A stretch of 64,000 nt of DNA from an uncultured Eubacteriales bacterium (GTDB taxonomy: Bacteria > Bacillota > Clostridia > Peptostreptococcales > Anaerovoracaceae): assembly GCA_902786355.1 (NCBI GenBank), contig CADABZ010000003.1, positions 1 to 64,000 of the forward strand, written 5' to 3'. The notes under the pieces were generated by a model. It searched no databases, was not told where the DNA came from, and saw only the letters and a list, made by a program, of their open reading frames with translations. Shown in pieces: positions 15,976 to 63,679 of the stretch. The translations under genes were made by a program, and so were the position numbers. Numbering within the stretch: position 1 is the first letter of the stretch; every line of letters begins with the position of its first letter.

Positions 15976-16014
15976 AAAGACCGGGTTCATCAGAGTCCGG
16001 TCTTTACCTTTTGA
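15976..16014 (+). terminator. Rho-independent terminator after ispH-rpsA
   Basis: A 9-bp stem (AAAGACCGG / CCGGTCTTT) is followed by ACC and TTTT. It separates the antiporter-ispH operon from the MurT-like cluster. Confidence 0.75.
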
Positions 16015-16036: not shown

Positions 16037-17404
16037 ATGGATTTCAGATTTTTCAGAGCAATGATCACCGGCAAGACCGGCAATATCGCGATCAGCATGA
16101 TCGACAGGAACAGGGGGACCACATGGGCAGGAAGAAAAGCTCTTGAGATCGATCCGGATCTTCTTACACGTTTTGCCGGCATCGATCCGGAAAGAGTTAT
16201 TTTCGTGACCGGAACCAACGGTAAGTCGACAGTCAGCAACATGATCACTCATATACTGAGGAGCAAAGGCTACAAGGTAATCTCTAATTCTGAGGGGGCT
16301 AATCTTAAGACCGGTGTAGCTGCAGCGCTTGTCAAAAAGGCATCTCTGTCCGGTACAGTCAGAGCGGATTACTGCGTTTTTGAAACTGATGAAAGATATC
16401 TTGCTCAGATCAGGGATCAGCTGCCATGCAGCAATCTGCTGGTGACTAATCTGCAGAAAGATCAGGTCCAGCGCAACGGCGATCCTGACTTTGTCTACAG
16501 AAAGATCGCTGCTGTAGCAGATAAGCACAAAATGAGGCTCTTCCTTAACGGGGATGAGCCGAGATCGTGCTCGCTTGCAGATCACTCAGACAATGTTGTA
16601 TTCTACGGTGTCAGCAGGCACTCTATGGCATTCACCAAGGATGATACCTTCGTAACTCTTCCGTGTCCGAAGTGCCACAGCCGTATACGCTTCGGCTATT
16701 ATAATAACGACGGCATGGGTGCTTTTAAATGCGACAGATGCGGCTATACGAACAATAACGGCAGAGAAGCTGCACAGTACAGAATCACTGAAGCTGATTT
16801 TGATGCCGGTACATTCAGGATGGGTGAAACGGCTTTCCTGATGCCTTATAAGCAGACATATATGCTGTACAATTATGCAGCGGCAACAGCTGTATGCAGA
16901 GAGCTCGCCGGAATAACTGAGGCTGAGTCTGCAGCGGCGATCAGAAGCTTCAAAGTTCCTGAAGGACGTATCGAAGAGATCACTTCCGGCAGTCAGACGA
17001 TAAAGTACTACAGATTCAAGCAGGAGAATCCTGAGACGCTTCAGAATTTCCTCAGCGCTGTCGCAGCTGATCCGGAAGAGAAGGTAGTGATCATCGGATT
17101 CGGCACTGTAAGCGACTACGATCCTTATTATGTCAATTCATTCTATGCTTTTGACTGTGACTACTCCGTCCTCAAAAAAGCAAACGTCAGAAAATATATC
17201 TTTGTTACAGATACTATAGCTTATGATGCTGCAAACTGTTTCATCTACGGAGGGGTAGATCCTTCAATGATAGAGATACTGCCTACCAGCGATGAAGAGG
17301 AAATATTCGATGCTATCAAAACCTGTGGCTGCAGCAACATATATCTTAACGTCAAGCTTCACATGTATGAAGAGCTGAAAGAATACGCACGCAAGGAGAT
17401 GTAA
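16037..17404 (+). CDS. MurT-like Mur ligase, first copy
   Basis: A 455-residue homologue of MurT, the ATP-using half of the MurT-GatD enzyme that amidates D-glutamate in lipid II. It has the family N-terminus (RGTTWAGRKALEIDP), the Mur ligase P-loop VTGTNGKST (residues 57-65), an inserted Cys4 zinc ribbon (CxxC at about 210-213 and 232-235) and a C-terminal DUF1727-type domain with FKQENPETLQNFL. The acidic DGxD-type region of canonical MurT, near the GatD interface, is not evident. The next gene is a GatD homologue 3 bases downstream, the normal pairing, but that partner lacks catalytic residues, so ordinary glutamine-dependent amidation is doubtful. Confidence 0.85.
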   Translation: MDFRFFRAMITGKTGNIAISMIDRNRGTTWAGRKALEIDPDLLTRFAGIDPERVIFVTGTNGKSTVSNMITHILRSKGYKVISNSEGANLKTGVAAALVKKASLSGTVRADYCVFETDERYLAQIRDQLPCSNLLVTNLQKDQVQRNGDPDFVYRKIAAVADKHKMRLFLNGDEPRSCSLADHSDNVVFYGVSRHSMAFTKDDTFVTLPCPKCHSRIRFGYYNNDGMGAFKCDRCGYTNNNGREAAQYRITEADFDAGTFRMGETAFLMPYKQTYMLYNYAAATAVCRELAGITEAESAAAIRSFKVPEGRIEEITSGSQTIKYYRFKQENPETLQNFLSAVAADPEEKVVIIGFGTVSDYDPYYVNSFYAFDCDYSVLKKANVRKYIFVTDTIAYDAANCFIYGGVDPSMIEILPTSDEEEIFDAIKTCGCSNIYLNVKLHMYEELKEYARKEM

Positions 17405-17407
17405 GAC

Positions 17408-18187
17408 ATGGCAGACAGAAAGATCAATATCGCCTGGATGTATCCTGACACTCTCTACCTCCACGGAGAGAGAGGAAATATAATGGCTCTGGTGCGCTTT
17501 GCCATGGAGCTTGGTCTTACACCTCATGTCAGAAGGATAGATCTTGGAACTAAGGACTTCGATCCTATGGAATATGATATCCTGTTCTACGGACCGGGAG
17601 AAATATCGTCATTCCGGAGTGTGATCCGTGATATTTCGGGATATAAGAGAAGTATCGCAGAATACATCTCTTCAGGAAAGGTGCTCATAGCAACCGGAAC
17701 TTCGATGGCTATGTTCGCAGAACGTATCATCAGATCCTCTCCTGATACAGAGAATGGCGCCGGAGAGGTGATAGACGGCCTCTGTGTCATTCCGGCAGAT
17801 GCTTTTGAGAGAGAATACGTATACGGAAACGATCTGCTTATCAGGGCTGAATACGGCGGCTATTCAATGGAGCTGATCGGCAATCAGATACAGATGACAG
17901 ATATCAGCTTCACTGAAAGCGGTCAGTACAGACGTTTCGGAACTGTCATATACGGCAGAGGCAATAACGGCCATGACGAACTTGAAGGTGCTGTACACGG
18001 CAACTCCATATTCACTAACATGCTTGGACCGATGCTTGTAAGCAATCCATGGCTCACAGTACAGATACTGAGGATGGCTGCTGCAGCAAAAGGCACAGAG
18101 GTCCTCGCTCTGGATCCTGATTACAGCCTTGAGATCAGATCCATGGAACTGAAGAAAAATTTCATTGATGATAAAGAATCTATATAA
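17408..18187 (+). CDS. GatD-like glutamine amidotransferase homologue lacking catalytic residues, first copy
   Basis: A 259-residue protein aligning with GatD along its length: INIAWMYPDTLYLHGERGNI at the start, GTVIYGRGNNG near residue 178 and LGPMLVSNPWL near 206. In active GatD the nucleophile lies in an ICGGYQ-type elbow near residue 94; here the segment is LIATGTSMAMF (residues 93-103), with no cysteine. The usual ENH segment reads IGNQ (Gln160), and the HGP histidine is replaced (LGP, Leu206). It should therefore not hydrolyse glutamine. It may be a structural or regulatory partner of the MurT-like protein. This is a reading by eye against the remembered family pattern. Confidence 0.82.
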   Translation: MADRKINIAWMYPDTLYLHGERGNIMALVRFAMELGLTPHVRRIDLGTKDFDPMEYDILFYGPGEISSFRSVIRDISGYKRSIAEYISSGKVLIATGTSMAMFAERIIRSSPDTENGAGEVIDGLCVIPADAFEREYVYGNDLLIRAEYGGYSMELIGNQIQMTDISFTESGQYRRFGTVIYGRGNNGHDELEGAVHGNSIFTNMLGPMLVSNPWLTVQILRMAAAAKGTEVLALDPDYSLEIRSMELKKNFIDDKESI

Positions 18188-18220
18188 TACAATCATCAGC
18201 GAAAGGAAACATATACATAC

Positions 18221-19564
18221 ATGAATACACTTAGATTCTATCTGGCACTGTGGGCATCCAAGCTGTCAGTTATACTGATCAACATCATAGCAAAGGGAAG
18301 AGGAACCAATCTTCCCGGCCAGGTCGCTCTTGCGATAGATCCGCAGTTTGTCAGGCATCTTCGCGGCATAGACCCGGCAAAAGCAGTTTTTGTCACCGGG
18401 ACTAACGGAAAGAGCACTACAGTAAACATGCTGCATCATGTCTTCACTTCATCCGGAAGAAGTGTAGCAGCTAATCTCGACGGAGCCAACATGCTTACCG
18501 GAGTCGCTACTGCACTCATCAAGGACAGCACTCTTTCCGGAAAAGTCCGCTCTGAATATGTGATCATGGAGACTGACGAGCGTTATCTGAAGTTCATACG
18601 CAGACAGCTTCCTGCAAAGCAGCTTGTGATCACCAATATACAGAAGGATCAGACCCAGAGAAACGGCGAGCCGGGAGTCATATTCCGGAAGATTTCGGAG
18701 GCCATGGGCGACGATCTTACAGCTTTTGTCAATCAGGACGAGCCAAGGTCTTTTGCTCTTGGCAGCTATGCCGGAAGGACTGTCAGCTACGCTGTCCGTG
18801 AGAACAGCAAATCCTACCATAAGGAAGAAGACTTCTTCTCGGTCACTATGCCATGCAGCAGATGCCATGAGCCTATCGTTTTCCGTGCACACAATATTGA
18901 GAATGTAGGGCCTTTTGTATGCCCGTCGTGCGGATACGGAGCTGAGAAGGAGGCAGATTACATCGCAGATACTGCAGACTTTGAAGGAGGCAGCTTCACA
19001 GCAGGCGGAAAGAGTTATCCGTTCAATTTCAGCACTCCGTACTTCCTGTACTGCTACATCTCGGTTCTCGCTGTATGCCGTGAAATGGGCCTGACTGAGG
19101 ATGAACTCTACAAAGGCTTTGAATCTTTCTCAGACCTCAGGGGAAGGCTTGCAGATAAGGAGATCGCAGGCAAGACACTTCACTACATCAAGATGAAGCA
19201 GGAAAACCCTGAGACCATACAGTCATCTCTCAACCTGGTCGCTGAGGATAAGAACAGGAAGATCTTCCTCTTCGGTCTGGATGAGACTCTGGACTATTAC
19301 CCGCCGTTCACCAATACACTCGCGCTGTTCGACGTAGACTTCCAGCCGGTCCTCGATTCCGGACTGGAGCATTTTGTGTGCATGTCGGAGGCAATAGGAC
19401 GCGCTGCAGCGGTCAGAATGATGTATGACGGGTTCGACTCTGAACACATGACTGTCAGACCTTCAGGATATGAAGAGGACGTTAAAGCGGCACTGGAGCC
19501 GCTTGGAGACTATCCTGTGTATCTTGTCGAAGAGATCCCGTATTATAAGAAACCGAAAAAATAG
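18221..19564 (+). CDS. MurT-like Mur ligase, second copy
   Basis: A 447-residue paralogue of the ligase at 16037. The P-loop FVTGTNGKSTT is intact, the Cys4 ribbon is present (CxxC near 212 and 234), and the DUF1727-like domain contains MKQENPETIQSSL. The copies share the same motifs but differ clearly throughout, so the duplication is not recent. Its C-terminal region (GLDETLDYYPPFTNTLALFDVDF) again lacks an obvious canonical DGxD block. The arrangement ligase-GatD-ligase-GatD suggests two heterodimers or one heterotetramer with different substrates. Confidence 0.85.
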   Translation: MNTLRFYLALWASKLSVILINIIAKGRGTNLPGQVALAIDPQFVRHLRGIDPAKAVFVTGTNGKSTTVNMLHHVFTSSGRSVAANLDGANMLTGVATALIKDSTLSGKVRSEYVIMETDERYLKFIRRQLPAKQLVITNIQKDQTQRNGEPGVIFRKISEAMGDDLTAFVNQDEPRSFALGSYAGRTVSYAVRENSKSYHKEEDFFSVTMPCSRCHEPIVFRAHNIENVGPFVCPSCGYGAEKEADYIADTADFEGGSFTAGGKSYPFNFSTPYFLYCYISVLAVCREMGLTEDELYKGFESFSDLRGRLADKEIAGKTLHYIKMKQENPETIQSSLNLVAEDKNRKIFLFGLDETLDYYPPFTNTLALFDVDFQPVLDSGLEHFVCMSEAIGRAAAVRMMYDGFDSEHMTVRPSGYEEDVKAALEPLGDYPVYLVEEIPYYKKPKK

Positions 19565-19578
19565 AAAAAGGAAGCTTT

Positions 19579-20421
19579 ATGTCATCAGATTTCAATAAAT
19601 TCAATGATATCAGAAAGAGCGTGAAGGACAGGACTGCTGTCCTCAGTAATCTTGAGGCACTCGGACTGCCGGAAGATACCCGCGCTCTCAATATACTCTG
19701 GATGTACCCCGATGTTCTTAATGTTTTCGGCGGCAGAGGCGACCTTATGGCGCTGATGAGGGTATGCACGTCAATGGGAGTGCCTGCGAGGATGAAGAGG
19801 CTTGACCATCTTGCTGATGCTATACCGTTTGAATGGGCTGATATGATCTATTACGCCAGCGGAGACCTTACCTGCATGGAGGATATCCTGAAGGTAACTT
19901 TGCCTGTAAAAGACGATCTTAAGGCATTTGCAGAGCGAGGCGGGATGATAGCTGCGGTAAGCAGCAGCGGAGTCATACTTGCGGATAAGTATGTCAGAGC
20001 TGACGGCACAGAGATCATAGGGACAGGACTGCTTTCGATGACCATGACAGAACGTGAGAAGGTGCACGGAGATGATCTGTGGTTCCGGACAGGATCCGGC
20101 ATGGAGGTCACAGGCAATCAGATACAGCTTCTTGATGTAAGCCTTGCTGAAGGCCAGAAGGCTTTCGGGACAGTCATCTACGGCCGCGGTAATGACGGAA
20201 ACGGCGAAGAGGGTGCACGTACGGGCAACGTCATATATACAGGATGTGTAGGACCTGTTCTCGTCAGAAATCCATGGCTGGCAGCAGATCTCATAGAAAC
20301 TGCTGCAGATGCTGCCGGAGTAAAACCTGCAGGAGGAGAATTCAGCCTTCCTGATGAAGCGATAGAGCAGGAGCTTCTGTCAGCCGAAGAGGCCAGAGCA
20401 TTTATAAGAAAAAAGATGTGA
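19579..20421 (+). CDS. GatD-like glutamine amidotransferase homologue lacking catalytic residues, second copy
   Basis: A 280-residue paralogue of the protein at 17408 with an N-terminal extension of about 32 residues. Shared blocks are LNILWMYPDVLNVFGGRGDL, GTVIYGRGNDG and VGPVLVRNPWLA. The nucleophile elbow reads MIAAVSSSGVILA (residues 123-135) without cysteine. The histidine positions read TGNQ (Gln181) and CVGP (Val224). Both copies have lost the same catalytic positions, which suggests loss before duplication and retention for a non-glutaminase role. It lies 14 bases after the second MurT-like gene. Confidence 0.82.
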   Translation: MSSDFNKFNDIRKSVKDRTAVLSNLEALGLPEDTRALNILWMYPDVLNVFGGRGDLMALMRVCTSMGVPARMKRLDHLADAIPFEWADMIYYASGDLTCMEDILKVTLPVKDDLKAFAERGGMIAAVSSSGVILADKYVRADGTEIIGTGLLSMTMTEREKVHGDDLWFRTGSGMEVTGNQIQLLDVSLAEGQKAFGTVIYGRGNDGNGEEGARTGNVIYTGCVGPVLVRNPWLAADLIETAADAAGVKPAGGEFSLPDEAIEQELLSAEEARAFIRKKM

Positions 20422-20474
20422 TCATTCACCAGGCTGCATATCCGGCGGAGAAGATCAGAAAAGAGGACATATCA

Positions 20475-21689
20475 ATGAAAGACAGAAAAGACCTGCTTCC
20501 GGTACTTATCGGAGGTGATTTTGCCGCTTACAGTCAGGCAAGGACATTTCACGAAGCTTATGGGGTAAAGTCACTGGCTGTTACTACAGCCGGCAACATT
20601 CTCAATACCAGGACGAGTATTCTTGAGACTATTGTTGAGCCTGAACTTACACAGACACCTGTTTTCTTGAAGAAGATGAAGGAGATCGCAGAGAACTATC
20701 CTCAGAAGCACAAGATAGTCCTCGGATGCCGCGACTGGCAGGTCAGGATAGTCATAGAGAATAAAGATGAACTGGAAGAGATGGGATTTATAGTTCCATA
20801 TATCGACAGACCGCTTCTCGATCAGCTTGTGCTCAAAGAGCACTTCTATGAGCTGTGCGACAGATATGGTGTGGCATATCCTAAGACTTTCGTATATGAT
20901 TTCAGTAATCCGGGACCTGTAGAGCTGGATTTTGATTTTCCGGTCATAGCGAAGCCTTCAAACAGTGCAGCTTACTACAATACATACTTCGAAGGACAGA
21001 AGAAAGTATATAAGATCGGAACCATGGAGGAACTTCTTGAGCTCCTCGAGCGCGTAGGGAAGTCGGACTATCCTGATAAATTCCTGATACAGGAGTTCGT
21101 CCCGGGAGACGATACAGGCATGCATCTTCTGACATGCTACTGTGACCGCAACAGCAAGGTCCGTCTCATAGCAGCCGGACACACTATGATGGAAGACCAT
21201 GAAGAGAATTCGATCGGAAACCCTGCCGCGATTCTGTCAGAGGTGCTTGATACAAAAGTCACGGACAGCGCTGTAAGACTCCTTGAGTCAGTCGGATATA
21301 TCGGTTTTGCCAATTTTGACATCAAGTATGATCCGAGAGACGGAGTGTATAAATTCTTCGAGATCAATACAAGACTCGGAAGCAGCAGTTACTATGTGAC
21401 AGGTGCGGGGTACAATACGGCAGAGTGGTATGTGAAGGAATGGCTGGATGGAGAAAGCTTTGACGGATGCATCACTGCAGACAGGCCGCATCTCTACACC
21501 AAGATACCACAGTCGATAATACACGGATATGTGAAGGACAGAGGGCTCAGAGAAGAGGTCGCAGAGCAGTATAAAGCATGCAGAGTCAGCAATCCGATAG
21601 ACTACCGCTCTGACAGGAACCTTCTGCATCATGCATATGTCAGATACTTTATGCACAGACAGAAGAAGCGTTTTCTTACCTATTTATAG
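20475..21689 (+). CDS. ATP-grasp carboxylate-amine ligase, D-aspartate ligase-like
   Basis: A 404-residue ATP-grasp enzyme. The N-terminal pattern (PVLIGGDFAAYSQARTFHEAYG) resembles AslA-type D-aspartate ligases, which add D-Asp to the peptidoglycan lysine. ATP-grasp features follow: FPVIAKPSNS, the strand KFLIQEFVPGDD, and the metal-binding FFEINTRLGSSSYY. The ATG at 20475 was chosen because GAGGAC precedes it; a GTG at 20418 overlaps the previous stop. It closes the MurT/GatD-like cluster and is related to the C-terminal half of the fused protein at 61186. The true substrates are not known; an amino acid and a peptidoglycan precursor are plausible. Confidence 0.8.
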   Translation: MKDRKDLLPVLIGGDFAAYSQARTFHEAYGVKSLAVTTAGNILNTRTSILETIVEPELTQTPVFLKKMKEIAENYPQKHKIVLGCRDWQVRIVIENKDELEEMGFIVPYIDRPLLDQLVLKEHFYELCDRYGVAYPKTFVYDFSNPGPVELDFDFPVIAKPSNSAAYYNTYFEGQKKVYKIGTMEELLELLERVGKSDYPDKFLIQEFVPGDDTGMHLLTCYCDRNSKVRLIAAGHTMMEDHEENSIGNPAAILSEVLDTKVTDSAVRLLESVGYIGFANFDIKYDPRDGVYKFFEINTRLGSSSYYVTGAGYNTAEWYVKEWLDGESFDGCITADRPHLYTKIPQSIIHGYVKDRGLREEVAEQYKACRVSNPIDYRSDRNLLHHAYVRYFMHRQKKRFLTYL

Positions 21690-37707: not shown

Positions 37708-37783
37708 GGGCGCATAGCTCAGCTGGGAGAGCACCTGCCTTACAAGCAGGGGGTCATAGGTTCGAGCCCTATTGCGCCCACCA
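37708..37783 (+). tRNA. tRNA-Val (anticodon TAC)
   Basis: Cloverleaf by eye: acceptor GGGCGCA/TGCGCCC, anticodon stem CCTGC/GCAGG with loop CTTACAA, T loop GGTTCGAGC, encoded CCA. First gene of the array. Confidence 0.95.
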
Positions 37784-37794
37784 TACACCTTTAT

Positions 37795-37871
37795 GGCCGG
37801 GTAGTTCAGTTGGTTAGAATGCCAGCCTGTCACGCTGGAGGTCGACGGTTCGAGCCCGTTCCCGGTCGCCA
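37795..37871 (+). tRNA. tRNA-Asp (anticodon GTC)
   Basis: Acceptor GGCCGGG with CCCGGTC, anticodon stem CCAGC/GCTGG with loop CTGTCAC, T arm GGTTCGAGCC, encoded CCA. Confidence 0.95.
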
Positions 37872-37875
37872 TTAT

Positions 37876-37950
37876 GCTGATGTGGCTCAACGGTAGAGCA
37901 GCTGATTTGTAATCAGCAGGTTGGGGGTTCGATTCCCTCCATCAGCTCCA
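37876..37950 (+). tRNA. tRNA-Thr (anticodon TGT)
   Basis: Acceptor GCTGATG/CATCAGC, anticodon stem GCTGA/TCAGC with loop TTTGTAA, T arm GGTTCGATT, encoded CCA. It lies 4 bases after tRNA-Asp. Confidence 0.95.
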
Positions 37951-37953
37951 GGA

Positions 37954-37998
37954 AACGGAAGGTGCAGGTTTTAAAAAAAGGACTTGCATCTTCCGGAC
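37954..37998 (+). other. Long inverted repeat inside the tRNA array
   Basis: CGGAAGGTGCA near 37955 pairs with TGCATCTTCCG near 37987, around an A/T-rich loop. It may be a processing hairpin or a weak attenuator in the 112-base gap between tRNA-Thr and tRNA-Tyr. Confidence 0.45.
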
Positions 37999-38062
37999 AA
38001 AAATTTCATAATAATACTTGTGATTCTTACCGGATGTATCCGGGAGATGATCAGGCAAATTT

Positions 38063-38147
38063 CGAGGGATTCCCGAGTGGCCAAAGGGGGCGGACTGTAA
38101 ATCCGTTAGCTCAGCTTTCGATGGTTCGAATCCATCTCCCTCGACCA
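38063..38147 (+). tRNA. tRNA-Tyr (anticodon GTA)
   Basis: A class II tRNA with a long variable arm. Acceptor CGAGGGA/TCCCTCG, anticodon loop containing GTA in CGGACTGTAAATCCG, encoded CCA. Confidence 0.93.
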
Positions 38148-38152
38148 AATAT

Positions 38153-38227
38153 GCGGAAGTGGCTCAGGGGTAGAGCATCGCCTTGCCAAGGCGAGGGTCG
38201 CGAGTTCGAATCTCGTCTTCCGCTCCA
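38153..38227 (+). tRNA. tRNA-Gly (anticodon GCC)
   Basis: Acceptor GCGGAAG/CTTCCGC, anticodon stem TCGCC/GGCGA with loop TTGCCAA, encoded CCA. Confidence 0.95.
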
Positions 38228-38232
38228 CTTGT

Positions 38233-38306
38233 GCGGATGTAGTTCAATGGTAGAACTTCAGCCTTCCAAGCTGATAGCGTGAGTTCGATTCTCATCATCC
38301 GCTCCA
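38233..38306 (+). tRNA. tRNA-Gly (anticodon TCC)
   Basis: Acceptor GCGGATG/CATCCGC, anticodon stem TCAGC/GCTGA with loop CTTCCAA, encoded CCA. A TTTCTTTTTT tract follows. Confidence 0.95.
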
Positions 38307-38338
38307 TTTCTTTTTTATAACACAAGTTGGGTATTTGT

Positions 38339-38415
38339 GGGTCCATAGCTCAGTTGGATAGAGCAACGGCCTTCTAAGCCGTGTGTCCGGGGTTCGAATC
38401 CCTGTGGGCTCACCA
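38339..38415 (+). tRNA. tRNA-Arg (anticodon TCT)
   Basis: Acceptor GGGTCCA/TGGGCTC with two G-T pairs, anticodon stem ACGGC/GCCGT with loop CTTCTAA, encoded CCA. Confidence 0.93.
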
Positions 38416-38451
38416 ATTTTTATACGGTTTGACTGCTACTCTATATAATAG

Positions 38452-38526
38452 TGGGGTATAGCCAAGCGGTAAGGCAACAGACTTTGACTCTGTCATTCGT
38501 AGGTTCGAGTCCTGCTACCCCAGCCA
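38452..38526 (+). tRNA. tRNA-Gln (anticodon TTG)
   Basis: Acceptor TGGGGTA/TACCCCA, anticodon stem CAGAC/.TCTG with loop containing TTG, encoded CCA. The T1-A72 pair is typical of tRNA-Gln. Confidence 0.94.
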
Positions 38527-38531
38527 ATTGT

Positions 38532-38607
38532 GACCCATTAGCTCAGGCGGTAGAGCACTTGACTTTTAATCAAGGTGTCCGGAGTTCGAATCTCCGATGG
38601 GTCACCA
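38532..38607 (+). tRNA. tRNA-Lys (anticodon TTT)
   Basis: Acceptor GACCCAT/ATGGGTC, anticodon stem CTTGA/TCAAG with loop CTTTTAA, encoded CCA. Confidence 0.95.
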
Positions 38608-38633
38608 ATTCACTTTTATCCCAACTATTAAGT

Positions 38634-38722
<89 letters not shown>

Positions 38723-38770
38723 AGGAGATCATAGAGGCTTAAGAGCTTCTGCGCAGACGAATCTGCGAAT

Positions 38771-38862
38771 GGAGAAGTACTCAAGAGGCTGAAGAGGACG
38801 GTTTGCTAAACCGTTAGGGTTCGATAAGGGCCGCATGGGTTCGAATCCCATCTTCTCCGCCA
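38771..38862 (+). tRNA. tRNA-Ser (anticodon GCT)
   Basis: Class II tRNA. Acceptor GGAGAAG/CTTCTCC, anticodon stem ACGGT/ACCGT with loop TTGCTAA, long variable arm, encoded CCA. A small hairpin (CGCAGA-CGAA-TCTGCG) lies just upstream at 38752-38767. Confidence 0.94.
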
Positions 38863-38869
38863 CATTTAT

Positions 38870-38945
38870 AGGGGTATAGCTCAGTTGGTAGAGCAGCGGT
38901 CTCCAAAACCGCGTGCCGAGGGTTCGAGTCCTTCTGCCCCTGCCA
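38870..38945 (+). tRNA. tRNA-Trp (anticodon CCA)
   Basis: Acceptor AGGGGTA/TGCCCCT, anticodon stem GCGGT/ACCGC with loop CTCCAAA, encoded CCA. Confidence 0.94.
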
Positions 38946-38970
38946 ATTTACTAGAGAAAAATTAACTCTT

Positions 38971-39047
38971 CGGGGTGTAGCGCAGTTTGGTAGCGCAACT
39001 GGTTTGGGACCAGTGGGCCGCGGGTTCAAATCCTGCCACCCCGACCA
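38971..39047 (+). tRNA. tRNA-Pro (anticodon TGG), copy 1
   Basis: Acceptor CGGGGTG/CACCCCG, anticodon stem ACTGG/CCAGT with loop TTTGGGA, encoded CCA. Its 77 bases are identical to the next tRNA. Confidence 0.95.
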
Positions 39048-39081
39048 CGCTTCATTATGAAGCACATATAAGAGTATAGAT

Positions 39082-39158
39082 CGGGGTGTAGCGCAGTTTG
39101 GTAGCGCAACTGGTTTGGGACCAGTGGGCCGCGGGTTCAAATCCTGCCACCCCGACCA
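39082..39158 (+). tRNA. tRNA-Pro (anticodon TGG), copy 2
   Basis: Identical over all 77 bases to copy 1, with an unrelated 34-base spacer between them. A recent duplication or gene conversion is likely. Confidence 0.95.
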
Positions 39159-39176
39159 TGTTTACTCAATACTTGT

Positions 39177-39252
39177 GGGCCATTAGCTCAGAGGTTAGAG
39201 CAACCGGCTCATAACCGGTCGGTCCTTGGTTCGACCCCAAGATGGCCCACCA
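39177..39252 (+). tRNA. tRNA-Met (anticodon CAT, elongator type)
   Basis: Acceptor GGGCCAT/ATGGCCC fully paired at position 1-72, so elongator rather than initiator. Anticodon stem ACCGG/CCGGT with loop CTCATAA, encoded CCA. A tRNA-Ile with modified C34 cannot be fully excluded. Confidence 0.85.
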
Positions 39253-39271
39253 TCTTTCTTCAATATGATAT

Positions 39272-39347
39272 GCCCAGATAGCTCAGTAGGTAGAGCAGGA
39301 GACTGAAAATCTCCGTGTCCTTGGTTCAATTCCGAGTCTGGGCACCA
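39272..39347 (+). tRNA. tRNA-Phe (anticodon GAA)
   Basis: Acceptor GCCCAGA/TCTGGGC, anticodon stem GGAGA/TCTCC with loop CTGAAAA, encoded CCA. Last gene of the array. Confidence 0.95.
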
Positions 39348-52371: not shown

Positions 52372-52379
52372 ATCTGAGG

Positions 52380-52482
52380 TCAAAGCAGAAGTTATCCGCT
52401 TCTCGCCTTGCAGACTAGCGTTGGCAGGGCTCAATATAGAGATGATTCTATTGATGCGGATACTTATGTGTCCGCATTTTTT
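52380..52482 (+). promoter_or_regulatory. L20-type leader with intrinsic terminator
   Basis: The leader contains CTTCTCGCCTTGCAGACTAG then TTGGCAGGGC, complementary GCCTTGC/GGCAGGGC segments, and ends in a strong terminator hairpin (ATGCGGATAC-TTAT-GTGTCCGCAT, 52454-52476, then T run). This fits the known feedback of ribosomal protein L20 on infC-rpmI-rplT by transcript attenuation in Firmicutes. Confidence 0.7.
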
Positions 52483-52521
52483 ATACGTACTGTTCCCCAT
52501 GGATTATTGGAGGTAAGAACA

Positions 52522-58135: not shown

Positions 58136-59755
58136 ATGAGTATAAGAACAGAAAGCATCAAAGTGATCGATTTTATCGATGCCCTGGGACTTGCAGGCAT
58201 CCTTACATCAGTGGACGGCGAATCAGCTTGCTCATCAGTTATATCCTACGTTACAGATCCTGATAAAGCTGCAAGAGCCGGCAGAGAAGTCACCGGCGTC
58301 ACCTACAATTCACGCGAAGCAGCACCCGGATCGCTTTTCGTATGCAAGGGGGCGCATTTCAAGGAAAAATATCTTGAGGATGCAATAGAAGCAGGTGCGG
58401 TCTGCTACGTCAGGGAAGACCCGAAAGGAAGCGGCGGACTTACATGCAGCATAACAGAAGATACCAGCTTCGAAAAAAGGCCGGGCTGCATCGGCATAAC
58501 TGTCAGCGATATCCGAAAGGCTATGCCGGTAATAGCGGAGACATTCTACGGAAGGCTCTCAGATGAGCTCTGCATGATAGGCATAACAGGAACCAAGGGC
58601 AAATCCACCACTGCCTATTTCGTCCGCTATATCCTTGACGACTATATGGCTGCAACCGGAGGCAAGAGGACTGCTATCTGTTCAGGTATAGACAACTATG
58701 ACGGAGTCATCGAAGAAGAATCACATCTGACGACTCCTGAGATCATGGAGCTGTATCAGCACATGAACAACGCTCTTTCAAGCGGGATCGGATACATGAC
58801 TATGGAAGTTTCCAGCCAGGCTCTCAAGTATGACAGAGTCGACGGTATCATGTTCGACGCAGGAGCATTTCTCAATATAGGATCAGATCATATCAGTGCT
58901 ATCGAGCACCCGGATTTCAATGATTATCTTGAATCCAAGCTGAGACTGTTCTCGCATTGCCGCAGGGCCTGCATCAATCTTGACTGCGAGGAGCAGGAGA
59001 GGATACGCAAGGCATCTGCAGACTGCCCGGATGTCATAACATTCAGCCAGAAGGACAGCAGCGCGAACGTATACGCGTATGATGTGGTTTCGAAAGAAGG
59101 CAAGGTAAGCCTGCATATCAGACTCAGGGACGTCAAGGGCGCGGAAGATTTTGATGAAGAGTTCACACTCGGTACATTCGGGACTATCAATGTCGAGAAT
59201 GCTCTTGCAGCAGTAGCGCTCACAGCCCTTGCCGGTGTTCCTGCAGAATATATGAAGTCAGGACTTGCCAAGGCCAAGTCTCCGGGCAGAATGGAAGTGT
59301 TCTACAGTGAAGACGGCAAGCGCATAGCGATAGTCGATTACGCACACAACAAGCTCAGCTATGAGAGATTCTTTGAAACTATCAAAGATGAGTTCCCGGG
59401 CAAAAAAATGATGATCGTCTTCGGCTGCCCGGGCGGCAAGGCTTTTGCAAGACGTGAGGAGCTCGGAACTATCGCGGGCCGCAGCTGCTCATATACGATA
59501 GTTACGGAAGAAGATTACGGCGAAGAAGATGTCAACAAGATCTGCCGCGAGATAGGAAAGTTCGTTGCCGCTGCCGGAGGAAAATACGAGATCATCACAG
59601 ACAGAGTCGAGGCTATCAAAAAGGCCATTACTCTGATGGATGATGACACGATTCTCTTCCTGCCGGGCAAAGGGCGCGAGACAAGAGAAAAGCGCGGCAT
59701 AGAGTATATCGATACTCCTTCGGATGCAGACGTCGTGATCGAGTACATGAAATAA
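58136..59755 (+). CDS. murE: MurE-like UDP-MurNAc-tripeptide synthetase
   Basis: A 539-residue Mur ligase adding the third amino acid of the peptidoglycan stem. N-terminal TYNSREAAPGSLFV, P-loop ITGTKGKSTTAYF, the LTTPEIMEL and MEVSSQALKYDRV blocks, and PGKGRET near the C-terminus define MurE. The DNPR motif of meso-diaminopimelate enzymes is replaced by TEEDYGEEDV, and VFGCPGGKAFARREELG matches the streptococcal/lactobacillal branch, which uses lysine or another diamino acid. Substrate is therefore not mDAP (inference). It lies 18 bases before a FemAB gene. Confidence 0.88.
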   Translation: MSIRTESIKVIDFIDALGLAGILTSVDGESACSSVISYVTDPDKAARAGREVTGVTYNSREAAPGSLFVCKGAHFKEKYLEDAIEAGAVCYVREDPKGSGGLTCSITEDTSFEKRPGCIGITVSDIRKAMPVIAETFYGRLSDELCMIGITGTKGKSTTAYFVRYILDDYMAATGGKRTAICSGIDNYDGVIEEESHLTTPEIMELYQHMNNALSSGIGYMTMEVSSQALKYDRVDGIMFDAGAFLNIGSDHISAIEHPDFNDYLESKLRLFSHCRRACINLDCEEQERIRKASADCPDVITFSQKDSSANVYAYDVVSKEGKVSLHIRLRDVKGAEDFDEEFTLGTFGTINVENALAAVALTALAGVPAEYMKSGLAKAKSPGRMEVFYSEDGKRIAIVDYAHNKLSYERFFETIKDEFPGKKMMIVFGCPGGKAFARREELGTIAGRSCSYTIVTEEDYGEEDVNKICREIGKFVAAAGGKYEIITDRVEAIKKAITLMDDDTILFLPGKGRETREKRGIEYIDTPSDADVVIEYMK

Positions 59756-59773: not shown

Positions 59774-61081
59774 TTGGATCAGATGAACAATTATACTTTT
59801 GATGAAAATCTAAGCAGGGAAGAATTCGGCTCGCTCCGGGATAATAAAAGCGTCAAGACACATTTTCTCGGTTCATACGCATGGGGCGAAGTATCAGGTG
59901 AGGGCAACTGGGTGCCTTACTATACCGGCGTCAGGAAAGACGGCGAGATAGTCGCAACGGCTCTTATCCTGCAGAAAAGGCTGGTCGCAGGCTATTCATA
60001 CTGCTATATACCAAGAGGCTTCACTATGGACTGGAGCGACACAGAGCTCCTGAGATACATGACAGCTGCTGTTAAGGATTTCTGCCGCAGACATAAGTCT
60101 ATCTTCTTCAAGATAGACCCGGATATCAGATACCATGTGATAGATGACAATGGCAGACCGGTTGACGGAGAGAATAATGAGAGACTGGTCAGAGAGCTTG
60201 AGGATCAGGGATATGAGCATCTGCCGCTGACATATTTCTTTGACAGCGAGCAGCCGAGATTCACATTCAGGATCAGGACAGACAGGGATATCAAAGACAT
60301 CCGCAGCGGATATGACAAGATCGTAAAGCGCAGACTCAGGCAGGCTGCAGCTGACGGAGTAGAGATCGTCGAGGGCGGCAGGGAAGATGTCGATGAGTTC
60401 GTCAGACTCATGACCATGACTGAACAGAGACAGGGCTTCTTCTCACATCATCCTGACTATTATCAGAAGTTCTACGATATTCTCAGCAAAGAGGATATGG
60501 CAGGCCTGTATTTCGCAAAGATAGATATTCCTGCGCTCACAGCCAGACTCATTAAGGAAGAAGAGGATCTTGCCGCCGAAAAGACTTCACTGGAGTCTTC
60601 TGAAGGTCCTAAGAACAAAAAGACCGAGGGAAGGATCAAGAGCATCAATGAAAGACTCGGAGCAATATCACGCCAGCTTGATTCACTTAAGGACAGTCCG
60701 CAGAAGGTCGTCACTGCATCAGCTCAGCTGCTCGTCACATACGGAGATAAAGTATGGACCCTTTATGCAGGAAATGACATGGAATACGGAAAGTTCTACA
60801 GCAATTATGCGATGTTTGACTATTGCGTTGAGACAGCTCAGAAGACAGGCGCGCAGTTCCTGGACGCTTTCGGGACAGTCGGAAAGCCGGGCGTCGATGC
60901 ACAGCTTGACGGACTTCACGAGTTCAAAAAGCGCTGGGGCGGTGAATATACTGAATTCATAGGTGAGTTCAATTACATAACCAACAGACCTGTGTACCTC
61001 GCATACAGCATACTCATCCCGATACGCAGAGCGATTGTAAGCAGAAGACTTCTGAAGGAAGTCGCATCCGGAAACAGATAA
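59774..61081 (+). CDS. FemAB family peptidyltransferase (peptidoglycan cross-bridge)
   Basis: A 435-residue aminoacyl-tRNA-dependent transferase of the FemX/FemAB type. These enzymes add amino acids to the stem-peptide side chain of lipid II. It has two GNAT-like halves and a charged coiled-coil arm (about residues 258-310, LIKEEEDLAAEKTSLE and after), the tRNA-binding-like insertion of Fem proteins. The TTG at 59774 was kept; ATG at 59783 is an alternative. Genomic pairing with the lysine-type MurE supports a cross-bridge role. Confidence 0.88.
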   Translation: MDQMNNYTFDENLSREEFGSLRDNKSVKTHFLGSYAWGEVSGEGNWVPYYTGVRKDGEIVATALILQKRLVAGYSYCYIPRGFTMDWSDTELLRYMTAAVKDFCRRHKSIFFKIDPDIRYHVIDDNGRPVDGENNERLVRELEDQGYEHLPLTYFFDSEQPRFTFRIRTDRDIKDIRSGYDKIVKRRLRQAAADGVEIVEGGREDVDEFVRLMTMTEQRQGFFSHHPDYYQKFYDILSKEDMAGLYFAKIDIPALTARLIKEEEDLAAEKTSLESSEGPKNKKTEGRIKSINERLGAISRQLDSLKDSPQKVVTASAQLLVTYGDKVWTLYAGNDMEYGKFYSNYAMFDYCVETAQKTGAQFLDAFGTVGKPGVDAQLDGLHEFKKRWGGEYTEFIGEFNYITNRPVYLAYSILIPIRRAIVSRRLLKEVASGNR

Positions 61082-61185: not shown

Positions 61186-63582
61186 TCACTGATCTTCTTT
61201 CTCTGTATAGTACCTGCGGTAATTGCGTATGCTTCTCGCATCCAGCTTCAGATCGTGAATGAGACGCTTCGGATGCTTTTCACCGGCGTTTCTGAATGTT
61301 CCGCCGTATCTGCCCTGACGCACGAGCTCAAGAGCCCTGGATCTCATTTCCTTATCTTTAATGTACTTTCTGACTATGCTCAGCGGCACATCAGCCCAGA
61401 GGACTTCGTCATAGGATCTCTCGGTCCCTGATCCGGCATTCAGTATGACATCCTCAGCCACACATTTTGCCAGATTATGGCCTGCAAGAGTCACATAATA
61501 GCTGCTGCGTCCCATTCGAGGGTTGAAGTCAAACACCTTGAAGGTGCCGTCGCGCCTGTCGTATTTGAGATCCACATTGAAGTATCCGAAATAAGGAACT
61601 GCAGATACGAGCTTTTCTACTGTGTCATATACGCTGTCGTCGCCTGATGCGAGGATGACGGTATAGTTTCCGATCGCCATAGGATAGTAATCCTCGAGCA
61701 GAGGCTGTCCCATCGAGAGAAGAGCAGCCGTGCCGTCTGTGCGGATGTATCCGTTGACGACTCGCATATTATCGTCACCTCCCGGGATGAACTCCTGTAT
61801 GAGCATCGCACCGCTGTATCCGGCATCATATGTTGAGGCTGCCGCTGCACTGAGCTCTTCCGGCGAGTTGATGATGAATGCTTTCTTCTGGCCTTCAAAA
61901 GGATGAGCGTTGTAATCATCAGCATCGTCCGGCTTGAGGACAAGCGGATATCCGAAAGGAAGCTCCGGAAGAGATGCATCACGGATGACGACCGTCTTCG
62001 GATACGGGATCCCGGCTTTTTCGCATATGCTGTAGAATTTTACCTTGGAATTGACAGCATCTACCGCCTCATAATCAGGGCATACCGATACATAGACAGG
62101 GTCGAGTCTGTCACGGCATTTTGACAGAAGCCTGGTATAGCTGTCTCCGCATGAGAGGAGCAGAGCCCTGCGTCCGCCGAACATAGGAGCGGCATCGTTG
62201 AGAACGGAGACAAAAGTCTCAGGTTCAGTGAAATCAGGGGTGCAGTGCACTTCGATGAAGGCTGAATGTGCAGTGTCGCTGAGAGGATAGTGGCCGAATG
62301 CATAGCTGCTGATGCCGTATGCCTCATGAAATGCTCTTGCCATGTTGTAGGCGTTGGTCTCTGTTCCGAGGAGAACAGGAACAAACCTTGAGCCTGTGTC
62401 TGTCATATCAGCGATCCTTTCGATGTCTGCCATTTCATGTCTTGTAGGAAGCAGCACTATACCTTCAGATATCCTGGATGCTTCAGGGCAGGAAGCTGCT
62501 GCCTCATCGCATCTGAACACTTCTCTGTCAGTAACACCCGGGAAAAGCAGGGGACGGCCCCATGTGCTGCTGTAAAAACCGCTTCTGTTAAGCATTGAGG
62601 AGAGACTCTCAGCCTCGGCCTCGCTGCCGGCTATCAGAGGGAACCACAGAAGAGGTTGGTCTGTATCAAGAGCAGCCTTCGGGACTTCGATCCCGGCACC
62701 TGAGCTCCTGAAATAATCACCGTAATACTTCACTGCCCTGGATCTCAGCTCTTCATTCTGATCGAGATCAGACATAGCAGATATGACGCGGGCTGCAGTC
62801 ACTGAGCCTGGTACTGTAGGGTCAAGGAGAGTATCTCCGCTGAGTTCTTCTGCTGAGATCCCCGGAATGAAAGCTCTTCTGTCTGTCCAGCGCTGCCTCA
62901 GAGGCCGCCTTATCTTCATAGGCAGGTGATTGAGTATGCGGAATCTCGTGAGGTACTGAGGGACGGCTTTCTCCACCCGTGTATCTGCCGCAGGCAGTGA
63001 CAGGAAGCTCTGGACGAGAGCTTCTCTGAGGACCTGATCTGACATTTCAGGAGATATCCATACGGCTCCGCCGAAAAGTGAATCGAGCATTTTCTCAAGA
63101 CCGAATGAATGCACGGAAATATCCGCAGCCGGAGCGCCGTCAGGTGTCCTTGCCATGCGGCAGACACACTGCGCACAGTCCTCGATGACTACGGCGCCTG
63201 CACTGCGTGCTTTTGCCGCTGAGCGGTTGAATGAATCGTTATCTATAATGCCGAATGTATGCTGGATGACTACAGCGCGGGTGCGGCTGTCAGCTGAAAG
63301 CTTCTCAGGATCAAGCGAGAGCGTGGCAGCTGAGATATCCTGGTATTTTATGTCGAGATGCCCTGCGAGAACAGCCTCAGGTACCGTAGAGCATGTAAAA
63401 GGCTGTATAATGACATCTCCTAATCCGGAATGCCTTCTGATCTGTTCAAATACAGTCTGCATCGCTTCTCTGGCACGGAAGGTGAGAAACCATTCATCAG
63501 GATCTGTGCCGGTGCGCCTGGCAAGAAGGATCCTGAGATCTCTGCATTCTGATGTTTCATTATTTCTTATATCCTGCATCAT
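61186..63582 (-). CDS. PLP aminotransferase-like domain fused to D-aspartate-ligase-like ATP-grasp domain
   Basis: A 798-residue two-part protein. Residues 1-395 resemble DegT/DnrJ-type PLP enzymes: VVIQHTFG, VIEDCAQCV (Asp135) and HSFGLEKMLDSLFGGA with probable Schiff-base Lys164. Residues 400-798 are an ATP-grasp ligase of the type at 20475: VPVLLGTETNAYNMARAFHE, YPLVLKPDD, MLIQEFIPGGDDN and FDFNPRMGRSSYY. The two ATP-grasp proteins share the AFHEAYG and NPRxGxSSYYVT blocks. An amino-acid racemase or aminotransferase feeding the ligase is plausible. ATG 63582 has GGAGG; upstream ATG 63651 does not. Confidence 0.8.
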   Translation of the reverse strand: MMQDIRNNETSECRDLRILLARRTGTDPDEWFLTFRAREAMQTVFEQIRRHSGLGDVIIQPFTCSTVPEAVLAGHLDIKYQDISAATLSLDPEKLSADSRTRAVVIQHTFGIIDNDSFNRSAAKARSAGAVVIEDCAQCVCRMARTPDGAPAADISVHSFGLEKMLDSLFGGAVWISPEMSDQVLREALVQSFLSLPAADTRVEKAVPQYLTRFRILNHLPMKIRRPLRQRWTDRRAFIPGISAEELSGDTLLDPTVPGSVTAARVISAMSDLDQNEELRSRAVKYYGDYFRSSGAGIEVPKAALDTDQPLLWFPLIAGSEAEAESLSSMLNRSGFYSSTWGRPLLFPGVTDREVFRCDEAAASCPEASRISEGIVLLPTRHEMADIERIADMTDTGSRFVPVLLGTETNAYNMARAFHEAYGISSYAFGHYPLSDTAHSAFIEVHCTPDFTEPETFVSVLNDAAPMFGGRRALLLSCGDSYTRLLSKCRDRLDPVYVSVCPDYEAVDAVNSKVKFYSICEKAGIPYPKTVVIRDASLPELPFGYPLVLKPDDADDYNAHPFEGQKKAFIINSPEELSAAAASTYDAGYSGAMLIQEFIPGGDDNMRVVNGYIRTDGTAALLSMGQPLLEDYYPMAIGNYTVILASGDDSVYDTVEKLVSAVPYFGYFNVDLKYDRRDGTFKVFDFNPRMGRSSYYVTLAGHNLAKCVAEDVILNAGSGTERSYDEVLWADVPLSIVRKYIKDKEMRSRALELVRQGRYGGTFRNAGEKHPKRLIHDLKLDARSIRNYRRYYTEKEDQ

Positions 63583-63611
63583 CGTTCCTCCGTCAGTAAA
63601 TGTATGGGAAA

Positions 63612-63640
63612 ATTGTAACATAGGGCGCTCTGCAACACAA
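63612..63640 (-). promoter_or_regulatory. Promoter candidate for the fused ATP-grasp gene
   Basis: On the minus strand, TTGTGT (63635-63640) and TACAAT (63612-63617) are 17 bases apart, about 30 bases upstream of the ATG at 63582. It lies back to back with the RNase Y promoter. Confidence 0.55.
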
Positions 63641-63650
63641 TTGATGACCA

Positions 63651-63679
63651 TTGACTAGACAGTTTTGTATAGGTATAAT
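63651..63679 (+). promoter_or_regulatory. Sigma-A promoter of the RNase Y gene
   Basis: TTGACT (63651-63656) and TATAAT (63674-63679), 17-base spacing. The leader of about 150 bases has inverted-repeat elements (GTTCCGGCTCGC and GCGAGAGC ... GGAAC), so it may be structured. Confidence 0.82.

Follow-up and report, generated by a model that had tools for sequence, protein, structure and literature searches.

The DNA analyzed here is a stretch of 64,000 nucleotides, referred to as the window (contig CADABZ010000003.1, positions 1 to 64,000 of the forward strand), from an uncultured Eubacteriales bacterium of the family Anaerovoracaceae. At positions 16037–21689 it carries five co-directional genes with intergenic gaps of no more than 33 bp, encoding two pairs of proteins related to the amidotransferase MurT-GatD and an ATP-grasp ligase, in the order MurTa-GatDa-MurTb-GatDb-ATP-grasp (Table 1). 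A first-pass annotation, made from the sequence alone, had reported this order correctly and had proposed that the MurT-like enzymes have been redirected from ammonia to another amine, perhaps an amino acid. An identical gene order is present in three public records, L004 and L005, labelled Mogibacterium, and L003, from an uncultured Clostridiales bacterium. When the set was searched for more broadly, as the annotation had suggested, all five genes together were seen only in the window and in these records; the clade of MurT-GatD pairs to which both window pairs belong, denoted MurT*-GatD*, is spread far wider.

Table 1. Genes of the cluster and other features of the window.
Feature	Position	Strand	Characteristics	Basis
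MurTa (MurT*, type a)	16037..17404	+	Mur-ligase-like; P-loop GTNGKST; Cys4 zinc ribbon; Asp349 equivalent is N	PF08245 and PF08353 above cut-off; alignment to S. aureus MurT; type-a clade 100/99
GatDa (GatD*, type a)	17408..18187	+	class I glutaminase fold; catalytic Cys94 replaced by T, His189 by L	AlphaFold model; structure matches
MurTb (MurT*, type b)	18221..19564	+	as MurTa; equivalent of S. aureus Asn267 (adenine pocket) is C, residue 278	type-b clade 93/90
GatDb (GatD*, type b)	19579..20421	+	catalytic Cys94 replaced by S, His189 by V; N-terminal extension of ~30 aa	
ATP-grasp ligase, probably AslA (D-aspartate ligase)-like	20418..21689	+		fold matches; gene neighbourhoods of relatives; homologue in L. 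curvatus
MurE	58136..59755	+	EDYG at the DNPR position	
FemABX-type peptidyltransferase	59774..61081	+	directly 3' of murE	PF02388, E 3.2e-75; NF047883, E 2.3e-19, under its cut-off
Terminator-like 13-pair stem, weak T tail	15976..16005	+	between ispH-rpsA and murTa	pattern scan only

According to a study of the Staphylococcus aureus enzyme, the glutaminase triad consists of GatD Cys94, GatD His189 and MurT Asp349, and exchange of Asp349 for asparagine abolishes or severely reduces amidation (PMC6113224). The window pairs differ from the lipid II isoglutaminyl synthases of S. aureus and S. pneumoniae in that all three residues are gone, Asp349 being asparagine in both MurTs, where the surrounding loop is remodelled. 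The annotation's statement that both GatD-like proteins have lost their catalytic residues is thus borne out and extends to the MurT half; the intact glutaminase active site that it had named beforehand as evidence to the contrary was found in neither GatD*. For comparison, we searched 148 genomes of the window's family, 243 of its class, 40 of a second family, f51, and 398 of the phylum; the samples overlap, and Actinobacteria lie outside them. Among 94 MurT-GatD pairs taken from the family and class samples and from named loci, Asp349 is present in 33/33 that have the GatD cysteine, mostly the 30 best-scoring loci and hence not a random set, and is lost in 51 of the 61 that lack it. Judged from sequence, the triad is lost in both halves of the complex, and the glutaminase is dead.

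Both window MurTs have the Mur-ligase middle domain with its P-loop and the MurT C-terminal domain, and an alignment confirms the annotation's claim that P-loops and zinc ribbons are kept: the P-loop, the DE pair, the GAN loop and the four zinc cysteines are retained in each. Among 91 other sequences, at least 93% agree at 29 MurT positions, and at 27 of these both window copies keep the residue; the exceptions are position 401 in MurTa (R to C) and the adenine-pocket asparagine in MurTb (N to C). The NCBIfam equivalog cut-offs are not reached (NF045635, 113 and 112.5 of 800 bits; NF045636, 69 of 400). In its AlphaFold model, GatDa preserves the GatD fold, with carbamoyl phosphate synthetase I (CPS1) among the fold matches, and the donor side is remodelled, with residues of its own that are conserved within the clade. 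The ratio of nonsynonymous to synonymous substitution rates (dN/dS) of the five genes lies at 0.03–0.16 in 11/15 comparisons with finite dS, rough values given that dS exceeds 1 throughout. These ratios rule out decay of the five genes into pseudogenes, with one suspicious change noted in MurTb.

The two window MurTs fall into a single clade with full support (100/100) and a long stem, which splits into type a (100/99) and type b (93/90, under the level starred in the tree); the MurTs of G353 and G382 belong to this clade and lie outside both types. In the tree, a and b diverged early within a single clade. A recent tandem duplication is ruled out by their separate positions, and the cluster, which the annotation had called doubled, brings together two old lineages instead. 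In the family sample, seven genomes have type a only, seven have type b only and one, that of the window, has both; the window genome yielded no ordinary murT-gatD pair. Outside the class, a window-clade MurT was found in a single genome of the phylum sample, G547. All window-clade MurT* loci that were read have a GatD* neighbour, except that of G097 (L245), where a type-b MurT* gene stands directly 3' of murE and no GatD was found alongside. Some archaea carry two MurT copies (PMC11915815), a likeness between the window and the MurT and MurT-like proteins of pseudomurein makers; the archaeal species with the MurT-like protein only have no GatD and in this differ from the window clade.

In f51, a single low-scoring MurT_C match occurs in 28 of the 40 genomes, of which tree or best blast hit places 27 in type a, and score alone the remaining one (G396); six have canonical MurT only, two have canonical and a second MurT, and no MurT was found in four. 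The CGG motif is absent from 22/22 type-a GatDs (L153–L174) and present in 8/8 canonical ones (L145–L152). The second MurT is of type b, by tree in G417 and by best blast hit in G418. In G417 (L237, L239), a type-b pair whose MurT has the same N267-to-C replacement as the window MurTb accompanies a canonical pair that keeps both Cys and His; G418 (L151, L238) combines canonical and type b, as assigned by blast. Since G417 has an intact canonical pair beside type b, type b there does something else.

In group B peptidoglycan, the cross-bridge is carried on the alpha-carboxyl of D-glutamate. The walls of Eubacterium limosum and Acetobacterium woodii, which we take to be of group B with a D-diamino acid in the bridge, are relevant here; Actinobacteria and Erysipelothrix are two other classic group B lineages. 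The genome around which f51 was assembled, G224, is taken as A. woodii, its RnfC being identical in 432/432 residues to PDB 9eri_C, presumably from that organism, and G406 is taken as E. limosum ATCC 8486. Both have one MurT_C, of type a, and no other MurT-GatD was found in either. In an organism with MurT* only and a group B wall, MurT* is a natural candidate for the bridging enzyme. Our literature search found no original wall-structure paper for A. woodii or E. limosum; a review lists Eubacterium with A variants and B2alpha peptidoglycan (PMC11382707).

The MurE sequences speak to the same chemistry, with the limit that counts rest on the best match and that some genomes have a second MurE. 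With EDYG at the DNPR position, the window MurE is not of the usual meso-diaminopimelic acid kind. The best match has DNPA in three f51 genomes and EDPS in one, and DNPR in 3/17 readable window-clade genomes (G108 and G030 were unreadable), 7/10 other genomes with a dead GatD and 2/2 with a canonical one. The other dead GatDs come from two further Clostridia clades that lack both Cys and His (L021–L030, L072, L081 and L083; and L069, L071, L073–L080 and L084). Because these mostly go with a DNPR MurE, we rejected the idea that group B follows from glutaminase loss alone.

An ornithine-racemase-like (Orr-like) gene may point to the amine. It overlaps or directly follows the type-b gatD* gene in G014, G030, G078, G133 and G191, that is, in five of the ten type-b loci readable outside the window genus (the locus of G418 ends at a contig end). 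In G133 it was detected by tblastn, where a longer antisense open reading frame overlies it; in G014 and G030 a murE-like gene lies 5' of murT* on the same strand. Three of the five racemase genes were scanned against NCBIfam, and their sole match, over the full length, was NF040742, ornithine racemase (E 1e-101 to 1e-123); the other two were matched by blast. Across f51, the racemase is present in 28/28 genomes with type a (low-scoring MurT alone), 0/6 with canonical MurT only, 0/2 with canonical and type b, and 2/4 without MurT. In the class sample, a full-length Orr-like match occurs in 8/8 window-clade genomes versus 34/235 others, a conservative count that we prefer to the split at 480 bits (8/8 versus 13/235), a cut-off chosen after seeing the data.

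The ATP-grasp enzyme, compared from an ATG start at 20463, is probably an AslA-like D-amino acid ligase for D-aspartate, judging from its fold matches and the neighbourhoods of its relatives. It has the ATP-grasp fold and matches L-amino-acid ligase and PylC; one matched PylC entry contains lysine joined to D-ornithine, which makes D-ornithine a second candidate beside D-aspartate. Relatives (E <1e-20) occur in 69/148 family genomes, including the window's, and are distributed unevenly, in 10/53 genomes with any MurT and 59/95 without. In 11 of the 14 genomes read, they stand next to an Asp/Glu-family racemase (the exceptions are the window genome, G000, together with G067 and G088), murE often comes next, and in G002, G010, G073, G022, G007 and G025 an Orr-like gene precedes the ligase. 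An Orr-like racemase, an AslA-like ligase and an Asp/Glu-family racemase stand in series in L127–L131 and L122, followed by murE in L127–L131 (L122 ends earlier). A protein of Latilactobacillus curvatus with 33% identity adjoins an amino acid racemase; the L. fermentum homologue has none adjacent. In Lactococcus lactis, aslA and racD share one operon (PMC4155827). The window ligase resembles AslA/AslFm of L. lactis and Enterococcus faecium in being an ATP-grasp enzyme whose relatives adjoin an aspartate-family racemase and often murE, a likeness of fold and gene neighbourhood, and differs in having MurT*-GatD* pairs in place of an adjacent racemase. No partner Asp/Glu-family racemase was found in the window or in the fetched stretches of its genome, the whole of which was not searched for one. 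The window also encodes, at 61186–63651 on the minus strand, a protein of 821 aa in which a DegT-aminotransferase-like domain is fused to a related ATP-grasp domain, 33% identical to the cluster ligase; a frame of similar length occurs in G113.

The cluster is flanked upstream by an ispH-rpsA fusion gene and downstream by a gene for an NhaC-like antiporter. The stem that precedes it is one of nine terminator-like sites found by pattern scan, compared with 5.6 +/- 2.4 in shuffled sequences; promoter-like sites in the pattern scan were at chance level only. The FemABX-type gene is probably a further bridge-building enzyme; it would fit a branched bridge and would equally allow a plain A-type bridge. 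Elsewhere in the window, 16 tRNA genes are clustered at 37708–39344, and Rfam places an L20 leader at 52377–52489.

What, then, might a glutaminase without a catalytic center be retained for? We propose that, within the old MurT*-GatD* clade, GatD* has turned into a pseudo-glutaminase. MurT* would still phosphorylate the alpha-carboxyl of D-glutamate in a lipid-linked or nucleotide-linked peptidoglycan precursor, as is assumed for MurT itself, and an amino acid, through its amino group, would attack the resulting acyl phosphate in place of glutamine-derived ammonia. This amino acid would most likely be a D-diamino acid, D-ornithine or D-lysine, supplied by the ornithine-racemase-like enzyme, and the product would be a group B (2-4) cross-bridge. 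MurT requires GatD even when ammonia is supplied (PMC6085368; PMC3266927), which may be why GatD* remains as a structural partner of MurT, perhaps one that holds the incoming amino acid. The AslA-like ligase of the window genus probably adds D-aspartate, so that a branched bridge would arise from the cluster; such a bridge is our simplest guess for the presence there of both types and a D-aspartate ligase. The analysis itself shows the gene order, the loss of the triad, the retention of MurT catalytic residues, the selection on the genes, their phylogeny and the associations with racemase and AslA-like genes; what MurT*-GatD* acts on, which amine it uses, what it makes and how types a and b share the work are inferred. 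We lean slightly toward the view that MurT*-GatD* couples a D-diamino acid to the alpha-carboxyl as a step in making the group B cross-bridge, joined in the window genus by the ligase. A bolder version, in which MurT*-GatD* is the missing group B ligase, the remodelled and conserved dead pocket holds the D-diamino acid, and two complexes with the D-aspartate ligase build a branched, mixed A/B bridge in the window genus, is speculative and, taken as a whole, rather unlikely. The change of amine that the annotation had suggested, an amino acid in place of ammonia and group B as its first option, thus gains real if indirect support from type a alone in A. woodii and E. limosum, from the racemase at half of the type-b loci and from the f51 pattern; glutaminase loss by itself is wider than group B.

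Several observations weigh against this proposal. The best MurE match has DNPR in G139, G028 and G191, and the two further dead-GatD clades show no link to the racemase or to group B. FemX- and AslA-like genes speak for bridges of the A type. MurTb lacks the equivalent of Asn267. No Orr-like gene lies near type b in G032, G108, G097, G417 and G547, the other five of the ten loci, nor is the racemase adjacent in any of 16 type-a loci outside the window genus (two with flanks of 1.5 kb only); G417 and G418 carry type b without racemase. The adjacent racemases score 338–411 bits, under the NF040742 cut-off of 480 bits, so that, their full-length match to Orr notwithstanding, the substrate is a predicted one, and the shared ancestry of the genomes means that Fisher p values for the racemase counts overstate independence. 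Racemase matches are found in 133/148 genomes of the window's family, a base rate too high for co-occurrence within it to be informative; hence the Orr-like gene of the window genome (G000:C30:3905-4978, on a separate contig from the cluster) proves little. Finally, the S. aureus complex with GatD C94G still amidates lipid II with NH3 at pH 8.5 (PMC3266927), and a dead GatD therefore does not exclude ammonia.

This last result underlies the main rival, which we consider improbable overall and yet the best of the alternatives: that MurT*-GatD* still makes D-isoglutamine, from free ammonia, with GatD* as a scaffold only. Ammonia-rich guts and amino acid fermentation would render the glutaminase dispensable. 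In CPS1, recovered here among the fold matches of GatDa, a dead glutaminase domain serves as just such a scaffold. The dependence of MurT on GatD even in the presence of ammonia agrees with this reading, as do the two other Clostridia clades without Cys and His and their prevailing DNPR MurE. It leaves unexplained, however, why a racemase should stand beside half of the type-b loci and why in f51 it should accompany every type-a genome and none of the eight with a canonical MurT. If their walls are of group B, E. limosum and A. woodii would be amidating the very carboxyl that belongs to the bridge, and G417 retains a canonical pair as well. In our judgement, the tie to the racemase and the hosts taken to have group B walls outweigh free ammonia, although not by much.

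Glycine or another neutral amino acid is attached to the D-glutamate alpha-carboxyl in Micrococcus-type and B1-type walls, and it is conceivable, at a distinctly lower probability, that MurT*-GatD* adds such a residue and that the racemase has its role elsewhere. Any amino acid should call for the same changes at the donor site, and the loci without a racemase, namely five of the ten type-b and all 16 type-a loci, as well as the genomes of G417 and G418, would fit. The five coupled racemase genes, and the agreement of racemase with MurT type across the family f51, favour a D-diamino acid instead.

To a similarly small degree we entertain that one of the pairs, namely type b of the window genus, has another carboxyl as its target, for example the free one of the bridge D-aspartate added by the ATP-grasp ligase, or regulates MurTa. 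The N267-to-C replacement is common to MurTb and its type-b counterpart in G417, and the ATP-grasp gene follows in 4/4 loci that hold both types. Otherwise, this gene and window-clade MurT* hardly ever share a genome in the family (the gene is in 1/15 genomes with window-clade MurT*, the window's own, versus 68/133 others). Against this, MurTb keeps all other strongly conserved MurT positions, at a dN/dS of 0.04–0.05. A separate peptide polymer, cyanophycin- or polyglutamate-like, which the annotation had offered as its second option because Mur-ligase and ATP-grasp domains also occur together in cyanophycin synthetase, has the adjoining Mur-like and ATP-grasp genes in its favour and deserves hardly any credence: the two functions lie in separate genes, the cyanophycin synthetase model TIGR02068 gives 23 and 18 bits (cut-off 850), the ATP-grasp enzyme resembles AslA, and the relatives sit with murE and racemases.

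We know of no published enzyme that joins the group B bridge to the alpha-carboxyl of D-glutamate, and a literature search, which did not extend to closed papers, found no report of one. With MurT*-GatD*, E. limosum and A. woodii offer a named, testable candidate that would open up the question of the group B bridge enzyme. If the proposal is true, it would show a route from an amidotransferase that channels ammonia to a ligase for amino acids. The MurT/GatD label, which in genomes of Clostridia is now read as amidation of D-glutamate, would then change its meaning.

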